DNA of 64,000 bases from contig JAOPYQ010000009.1 in assembly GCA_025964555.1 (NCBI GenBank), forward strand, positions 124,001-188,000, in the 5' to 3' direction. Every line of letters begins with the position of its first letter. Within the stretch, counting starts at the first letter, position 1. Source of the stretch: Thermoleophilia bacterium. Lineage in GTDB: Bacteria; Actinomycetota; Thermoleophilia; Gaiellales; SKUG01. The translations under genes were made by a program, and so were the position numbers. The notes below the pieces were generated by a model. The model was not told where the DNA came from and searched no databases. It saw only the letters and a program-made list of their open reading frames with translations. Positions 40,423 to 56,663 of this stretch are shown here, in pieces.

Positions 40423-41106
40423 CTACCCCGTTTCCGCCATCCCTGACGAGCCCGCCTGCTGCGCGGCGTCCGCGCGCTGCGCGCGCCGCAACAGGTACTG
40501 CTGGTTCGACGCCGCCGCCGGCTGGAAAGACGAGTCGAACTCGACACGGGTCGTCACCGTGACACGCACGCGCTCATTGTCACCTCCGTCCCGGAAATCG
40601 GGACGCGCGTGACAATGACCCGACGTCGCCGCTGCGCCCGCGCGGTCATTGTCACCTCCGTCCCGGAAAGCGGGACGCGCGTGACAATGACCGGCGGGGA
40701 CGTCATGGGCGGGGCCGGTGGCCAGCGCGTCGCGACGCTGCTGCTCGGTGTCGACCGCGCGCTCTGCGATCGCGAGCTGCGCCTGGGTCGTCACGAAGAT
40801 CGCGGAGCGGTAGCGATAGTCGGCTCCGCCCTCGATGCGGTGGCGCGCTGCGGGATCATGCCGCTCCCAGAACACCGCGATCAGTTCGTCCAGCGACACG
40901 AGCGCCGGATCGAACCACACGCGCACCGCCTCGCAGTGGCCGGTGTCGCGCCGGCATGGAGTCGCTTCCGCAGCCACCCCGGCCGGGCCACCCGCATAGC
41001 CGGCTTCGGTGCGCACGACACCGTCCACGACGCGGAACGCCTCCTCCACGTGCCAGAAGCAGCCGGCGGCGAACGCGACGAGTTGGGGCGTGTCGGAGCG
41101 ATCCAT
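40423..41106 (-). CDS. msrA: peptide methionine sulfoxide reductase MsrA carrying an internal repeat insertion
   Basis: AFAAGCFWHVEEAFRVVDGVVRTEAGYAGG..DTGHCEAVRVWFDP...RYRSAIFVTT; C-terminal part contains two GHCHARPxFRDGGDN repeats. Confidence 0.82.
   Translation of the reverse strand: MDRSDTPQLVAFAAGCFWHVEEAFRVVDGVVRTEAGYAGGPAGVAAEATPCRRDTGHCEAVRVWFDPALVSLDELIAVFWERHDPAARHRIEGGADYRYRSAIFVTTQAQLAIAERAVDTEQQRRDALATGPAHDVPAGHCHARPAFRDGGDNDRAGAAATSGHCHARPDFRDGGDNERVRVTVTTRVEFDSSFQPAAASNQQYLLRRAQRADAAQQAGSSGMAETG
40574..40618. repeat. 45-bp nested palindromic element, copy 1
   Basis: TCATTGTCAC-CTC-CGTCCCG-GAAAT-CGGGACG-CGC-GTGACAATGA. Confidence 0.85.
40646..40690. repeat. 45-bp nested palindromic element, copy 2
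   Basis: TCATTGTCAC-CTC-CGTCCCG-GAAAG-CGGGACG-CGC-GTGACAATGA; outer arms extend to 13 bp (40643-40655/40681-40693). Confidence 0.85.
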
Positions 41107-41124
41107 CGAGTTCACATGATGCCT

Positions 41125-41244
41125 CGCTGCCGGCGCGGTGTCAGAAGTCGCCGCCGGCGCGGTGTCAGAAGTCGCTGCCGGCGCGGTGTCAGAAGTCGCT
41201 GCCGGCGCGGTGTCAGAAGTCGCTGCCGGCGCGGTGTCAGAAGT
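41125..41244. repeat. 24-bp tandem repeat x5
   Basis: cgctgccggcgcggtgtcagaagt in five consecutive units, one with t to c; each carries TCA (TGA stop on minus strand). Confidence 0.88.
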
Positions 41245-49825: not shown

Positions 49826-50350
49826 TTACGAAGCTGCCTCGGCTCGCCGGGGCAGCTTCCAATTCGGGCGCGGGAAATGACACGTGTAGCCGCCCGGGAA
49901 TTTCTCCAGGTAGTCCTGGTGCTCCGGCTCCGCCTCCCAGAACTCGCCTGCCGGCTCGACCTCGGTGACCACGCGGCCGGGCCAGATGCCGGAGGCGTCG
50001 ACGTCCGCGATCGTGTCGTTGGCAATGCGCTGCTGGGTCGAGTCGAGGTAGTAGATCGCTGAGCGGTACGCCATGCCCATGTCGTTGCCCTGGCGATTCC
50101 TGGTCGTCGGGTCGTGGATCTGGAAGAAGAACTCGAGGACCTCGCGGTAGCTCGTGCGGCGCGGGTCGAAGACGATCTCGATGCCCTCTGCGTGCGTGCC
50201 GTGGTTCTTGTACGTCGCGTTCGGCACGTCGCCGCCCGTGTAGCCCACGCGGGTGCTGAGGATGCCGGGCTGCTTGCGGATCAGGTCCTGCATGCCCCAG
50301 AAGCAGCCGCCGGCCAGGATCGCGGTCTCGGTGTTGTCAGCCATCGTCAT
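49826..50350 (-). CDS. msrA: peptide methionine sulfoxide reductase MsrA
   Basis: [54 protein letters not shown]...YRSAIYYLD...[14 protein letters not shown]. Confidence 0.95.
49834..49865. repeat. 32-bp hairpin repeat, copy B (terminator-like, overlaps msrA 3' end)
   Basis: CTGCCTCGGctcgCCGGGGCAGcttccaattc; stem extends to AAGCTGCCTCGG/CCGGGGCAGCTT. Confidence 0.75.
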
Positions 50351-56301: not shown

Positions 56302-56388
56302 TCGCGGGGGCGGGTGCGCGAGCGGTAGCGCGGCGTCGGCGCGAGGTCGGGGCGAAGCGCCTTCCCCGCGCGGAGCGCGGCGTGCATT

Positions 56389-56620
56389 CGTACCGGTGGG
56401 CGGTACGTTCGGCTCACTGGATGCGTGACTGCCCCGGCTGTGTCGACATCCGTTCCGATGCAGCGGTACGTTCTGCACTGAAGTTGCCCTCCGCGGGGGC
56501 GTGCGCGGCCCCGACATCGGATCCGATCGTTGTCGTGCGAGACACGATCGGATCACGTCTGGCATCGCGTGCGAACATCGGATCCGAGCGTTGCGATTTT
56601 GGCTACGATCGGACCCGATG
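56389..56620. repeat. intergenic cluster of short direct and inverted repeats
   Basis: GCGGTACGTTC at 56400 and 56463; GATCCGATCGT(56520-56530)/ACGATCGGATC(56544-56554); ACATCGGATCCGA(T/G)CGTTG repeated 60 bp apart. Confidence 0.65.
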
Positions 56621-56663
56621 ATGCGCCACCGAGCCCCGGACCGCGGTCGGTAGGCTGCGATCC

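Follow-up and report, generated by a model that had tools for sequence, protein, structure and literature searches.

The msrA gene and its insert

The window analysed here, 64,000 nucleotides of a draft genome (G000; 2.70 Mb, 51 contigs, 64% complete), carries an msrA gene whose predicted product matches the Pfam family PMSR (PF01625, E=1.4e-32; Table 1). The start of the gene, at 41106, is an inferred one, and the open frame continues further upstream. An insert of 53 aa follows the Pfam core match and precedes the conserved C-terminal segment TTRVEF...QQYL. It is encoded by a 159-bp block, of which two palindromes make up 98 bp, the spacer between them 23 bp and flanking sequence 38 bp. Both palindromes are read in one minus-strand frame, as GHCHARP[AD]FRDGGDN[DE], within the predicted MsrA; translation and the PMSR match confirm what an earlier note on this DNA had claimed. 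Its estimate of about 50 added amino acids also stands, and the two insertions that it described are refined here to one block with a direct dimer. A single-sequence AlphaFold prediction for MsrA reached a pLDDT of 39 and was not usable.

Table 1. Features of the msrA locus, in positions of the window.
Feature	Position	Strand	Description	Basis
msrA, 227 aa	40423..41106	-	Pfam PMSR core at residues 10-124	ORF list, Pfam, orthologs
159-bp block	40567..40725	-	Encodes MsrA residues 128-180	G003 match and 29-sequence alignment
Palindrome copy 1	40572..40620		49 nt; 11/12 pairs in the outer arms and 7/7 in the inner	
Spacer of direct dimer	40621..40643		23 bp; copies 72 bp apart, start to start	Read from sequence
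Palindrome copy 2	40644..40692		49 nt; 12/12 outer and 7/7 inner, perfect pairing	

Homologs of MsrA were found with a protein query in 67 of 81 genomes. The ortholog of a member of the same genus (G003), 80% identical, covers residues 5-127 and 181-215 of the query on directly adjacent DNA. Among 29 aligned sequences, residues 128-180 are present solely in the MsrA of the window and are missing from all others (28/28). The locus thus has the feature expected of RPE-type repeats, an in-frame insertion in a conserved gene with an empty site in relatives. The earlier note had proposed this comparison and had named a result that would count against its reading, namely the same segment in all orthologs and no copies elsewhere; the clean site in the congener, the 28 relatives that lack the segment and the further copies described below answer both parts in its favour.

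Also in the window, a second msrA-like gene lies at 50012-50341 (minus strand); it is 34% identical to the first and has no insert. Between msrA and its upstream gene, at 41124-41240, there is a tandem repeat of about five copies of the 24-bp unit GGTGTCAGAAGTCGCTGCCGGCGC, which duplicates the 3' end and stop codon of that upstream gene.

Layout and fold of the two palindromes

Both msrA palindromes have the nested hairpin layout 12-3-7-5-7-3-12 (49 nt), which extends the 45-bp cores recognised earlier by two bases on either side. These cores had been described as near-identical with a single difference in the loop, and this was borne out. The pattern TCATTGTCAC(N25)GTGACAATGA has exactly two matches in the window (40574-40618 and 40646-40690), with no third copy there when up to three mismatches were allowed. 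It was absent from all of 100 shuffles, which rules out a chance palindrome. The extended palindrome is perfect in copy 2 (GGTC...GACC) and has one mismatch in copy 1. Folded as single-stranded DNA, copy 2 alone reaches -20.4 kcal/mol (z -6.9, one element), and the RNA fold spanning both elements, a check that had been suggested, gave z -7.0.

A family of copies in the genome and its relatives

A genome-wide search, likewise proposed in the earlier note, recovered at least 34 copies in G000, which was covered by searches and a selection of stretches. The set was enlarged with the covariance models R1, R2, and R3, and its members belong to three subfamilies by sequence, GGTCATTGTCAC..., GCCGAAGTCACCAGCGT..., and CATGTGCGTC.../GATGTGAGTCGACTT.... 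The first further copy was found on contig C18, and half-site matches in G000 numbered 22 vs. one in a reversed control. The nested layout is common to all 34 listed copies, each written at a length of 49 nt; the mean number of paired positions is 9.9 in the outer arms (of 12) and 5.7 in the inner arms (of 7).

Outside this genome the family is thinly represented. About nine diverged relatives occur in the congener G003, and one of them, GCCGAGGGGAAC...GTTCCCCTCGGG, has arms that are altogether different. Covariance-model searches of G001, G002, and G004 gave no match at E<=0.05, and two congeners have no family members. Three marginal matches in all came from nine more genomes of the order. 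The inner core GTCCCGN5CGGGAC has 10 occurrences in G000, eight in G003 and 0-3 in 59 relatives. Exact-pattern scans, by which diverged copies are missed, found nothing in 85,462 species genomes except one stray, probably chance, match in Bacteroidales, and no match in viral contigs, where diverged copies would likewise escape. A widely shared element is therefore not supported by scans of this kind. A known RNA family was ruled out, as Rfam returned only microRNA and sRNA matches far below threshold.

Several other palindromes were seen along the way. Additional nested, imperfect palindromes cluster in the intergenic region behind an alpha-amylase-like gene (56385-56622 of the window); model R2 scores 19.3 bits at 56576-56620, where the arms are unlike those of the msrA pair. 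Another type of 49-nt hairpin, GAGGTGC...GCACCTC, is present as a pair in the same genome (L226:10732-10780 and L228:14734-14782). Two family copies lie on a 151-bp tandem duplication (C30:40551-40750), and thus some copies multiply together with flanking DNA.

Position of the copies relative to genes

Gene calls were based on open reading frames and third-position GC, with Pfam checks for some neighbours. The majority of copies are intergenic and many lie 2-30 bp behind a stop codon, so that the family has the dispersed, mostly intergenic distribution near gene 3' ends by which the REP class is recognised. For example, the distance past the stop is 2 bp at C18:105700, 6 bp on C20, 17 bp on C44, and about 25-28 bp on C21, C8, and C41. 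Sites between convergent genes are occupied by copies at C18:80261 (next to typA/bipA) and on C12 (next to a class-II tRNA synthetase gene), and some others lie between divergent genes. For two genes the copy itself supplies the stop codon (an O-antigen ligase-like gene at C16:32618 and a TrkA_N gene at C29:4080).

In-frame copies were found only at msrA and in one other ORF. The latter, at C10:45312, came from the suggested check for further copies in frame; it encodes DVSRLLPAERGKLDAHA within a 305-aa ORF that has a SWIM zinc-finger match. The congener orthologs differ there in a variable linker and offer no clean empty site, which makes C10:45312 a candidate insertion at most. We also considered a peptide-coding repeat, given the frame V-T-x-V-P-x-x-G-T-x-V-T that recurs in two subfamilies. 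This was rejected because the motif follows from the conserved arms, because msrA uses another frame and strand, and because most copies are intergenic.

Nine flanking genes were followed through their homologs in up to three congeners, and no strong copy was seen downstream. From these sequences, the family looks to have spread recently in its own lineage.

Direct dimers

Some copies occur in direct pairs with a nearly constant spacing of 72 bp (C1, the msrA pair; C40; C12) or 71 bp (C29 and C13 of G003), and the spacers of these pairs are unrelated to each other. The arrays are thus regular and in the same orientation, not in the alternating orientation that defines BIMEs. At msrA the 72-bp period is divisible by three. 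The block there is probably a single dimer; given the equally spaced dimers elsewhere in the genome, it would be as likely to stem from one insertion of a dimer as from two insertions.

Compensatory change in the arms

The fold is maintained while the sequence drifts, through extensive compensatory change. In an alignment of 28 members, changes on both sides are seen at 16 of 19 pairs. Cells changed in this way number 99, compared with 33.5 in shuffles and no more than 29 in slid controls, for members that were found with models that reward pairing. The picture was the same with 23 members and weaker with the first 12. Model R3 recovered seven copies that had been absent from every model, and their length and layout are identical to the rest. 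In a random 464-kb sample of the genome, palindromes of many layouts are in excess (2-9 found vs. 0.2-1.2 expected); because of this general excess, the exact nested layout is no more enriched than neighbouring layouts.

Terminal motifs and candidate enzymes

The motif GTAG was found within 8 nt of none of 68 palindrome ends. CGTC lies near only four of the 68, and the CGTC of the elements is located in the paired inner arm. The copies therefore differ from CGTC REPs, and from RPE-4 and RPE-6, in having no unpaired tag and in having stems of 12 and 7 bp.

RAYT genes are typically flanked by REPs. A search for a Y1/RAYT gene (PF01797) gave no match in genomes G000-G004, which are 52-88% complete. 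Of the other genomes of the order that were searched, 12 do have a PF01797 match. MITEs share terminal inverted repeats with an autonomous element and are bordered by target-site duplications; the elements described here have palindromic ends, with no autonomous partner or target-site duplication identified. TnpA-REP and IS200-type enzymes recognise hairpins with stem irregularities (PMC8266576), and by analogy it is plausible that an enzyme acting in trans mobilises the family.

Origin of the msrA insert

We favour, at a probability of roughly 75%, an untagged, lineage-specific, non-autonomous family of REP/RPE-like palindromes, with one of its dimers inserted in frame in msrA, where it was tolerated. 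Short non-coding nested hairpins of 49 nt, single or as direct dimers of about 72 bp, would behave like REP/BIME and RPE, and would most likely spread as single-stranded hairpins handled by a transposase encoded outside the known part of the genome. Copies would survive chiefly just behind genes. In msrA, one dimer would have been inserted behind the core and ahead of the TTRVEF segment, and the protein would have gained 53 residues with its reading frame intact; the block brings no in-frame stop and its 159 bp are divisible by three, so the frame survived. That the family is mobile, that an enzyme transposes it, that msrA received its block in one event, and that the longer MsrA is produced and has a function is what we infer from these data. 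More tentatively, and at well below even odds, the copies may represent a class of elements recognised by fold, in which at least three subfamilies with different arms in one genome and a diverged set in a sister species have the 49-nt nested layout and the 72-bp direct dimers in common; they would be mobilised by some enzyme that acts on single-stranded DNA and is not RAYT, and occasionally be recoded into proteins such as MsrA.

The location of the copies and the conservation of their pairing could also be explained by function. RNA hairpins behind genes, as stabilisers of transcript ends or terminators, might have been multiplied by duplication and selection, with the msrA pair a stray duplicate, and both the many copies 2-30 bp past stop codons and the compensatory change would suit such a role. 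However, an intrinsic terminator is a hairpin followed by a T-tract; TTTT occurs within 12 nt after none of the 68 palindrome ends, and for lack of this T-tract intrinsic terminators were rejected. The congener homologs of the flanking genes have no such hairpins, and some copies lie between divergent genes or, at two sites, in ORFs, so that we consider a functional RNA unlikely. The compensatory change might instead reflect mutation bias, with template switching correcting imperfect hairpins, and neither selection nor a recognising enzyme at work. The excess of palindromes of many layouts (2-9 vs. 0.2-1.2 expected) is in line with this, as are copies in other subfamilies that are perfect with unrelated arms, but the common 49-nt length, the common core, the 72-bp dimers, and the 159-bp msrA block would be left unexplained, which makes it improbable as the source of the family. 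Lastly, assembly can join repeats wrongly, and the sequence comes from a draft genome (64% complete, 51 contigs). Yet the contig is 235 kb long, the repeats are short, the frame is open across both copies, and the C-terminal MsrA segment resumes in frame after them; an assembly or binning artefact at msrA is thus very improbable indeed.

Comparison with known palindromic repeats

The likeness to RPE or REP/BIME that the earlier note had seen holds as an analogy, supported by the empty site and the at least 34 copies. REPs have been reported by the 3' ends of genes, as donors of stop codons, as dimers, and inside genes; the CGTC class, to which RPE-4 and RPE-6 belong, reportedly has no dedicated transposase and also occurs inside genes and as dimers (PMC3733652). 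In-frame RPE insertions have been reviewed (PMC10969869). The msrA family shares with RPE the in-frame palindromic repeats in conserved genes, the dimers, more than one site per genome, and the lack of a known dedicated transposase (PMC3733652; PMC10969869). On the other hand, RPE as first reported are about 150 bp long, nearly half of them are in frame, and RPE-4 and RPE-6 have a CGTC tag, stems of 8-9 bp beginning with A-T pairs, loops of 4-5 nt and a CCA tail, whereas the msrA family consists of 49-nt nested hairpins without a tag that are rarely in frame (two sites).

With REP/BIME the family has in common dispersed palindromes with internal mismatches that are species-specific, are mostly intergenic and behind genes, sometimes supply stop codons, and occur in pairs (PMC3733652; PMC8266576). 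REP/BIME are tagged with GTAG, are linked to RAYT/TnpA-REP, form head-to-head or tail-to-tail pairs, and number in the hundreds; in contrast, the msrA family has no GTAG tag and no RAYT that was found, forms direct pairs at 71-72 bp, and numbers in the tens. Untagged REP-like stem-loops, noted in M. tuberculosis, D. radiodurans, Bordetella, Brucella, and Cyanobacteria (PMC3733652), are likewise dispersed palindromes without a terminal motif or known enzyme. Judged by published descriptions, the msrA family would be set apart from these through its fixed 49-nt nested layout, exchanged arms, and 72-bp direct dimers. A literature search retrieved no description of the family, of a nested layout with exchanged arms, or of direct 72-bp dimers. 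With no tag, no RAYT, direct dimers, and two in-frame sites, the msrA family is like REP and RPE rather than a proven member of either.

The msrA locus thus extends the Rickettsia examples to another lineage: palindromic repeats have become part of a conserved enzyme, and the site is cleanly empty in an ortholog that is 80% identical. What mobilises REP-like elements that have neither tag nor dedicated transposase is a question left open (PMC3733652), and a lineage-specific family that has kept its structure while exchanging its arms, with no RAYT in sight, makes a useful system in which to address it.
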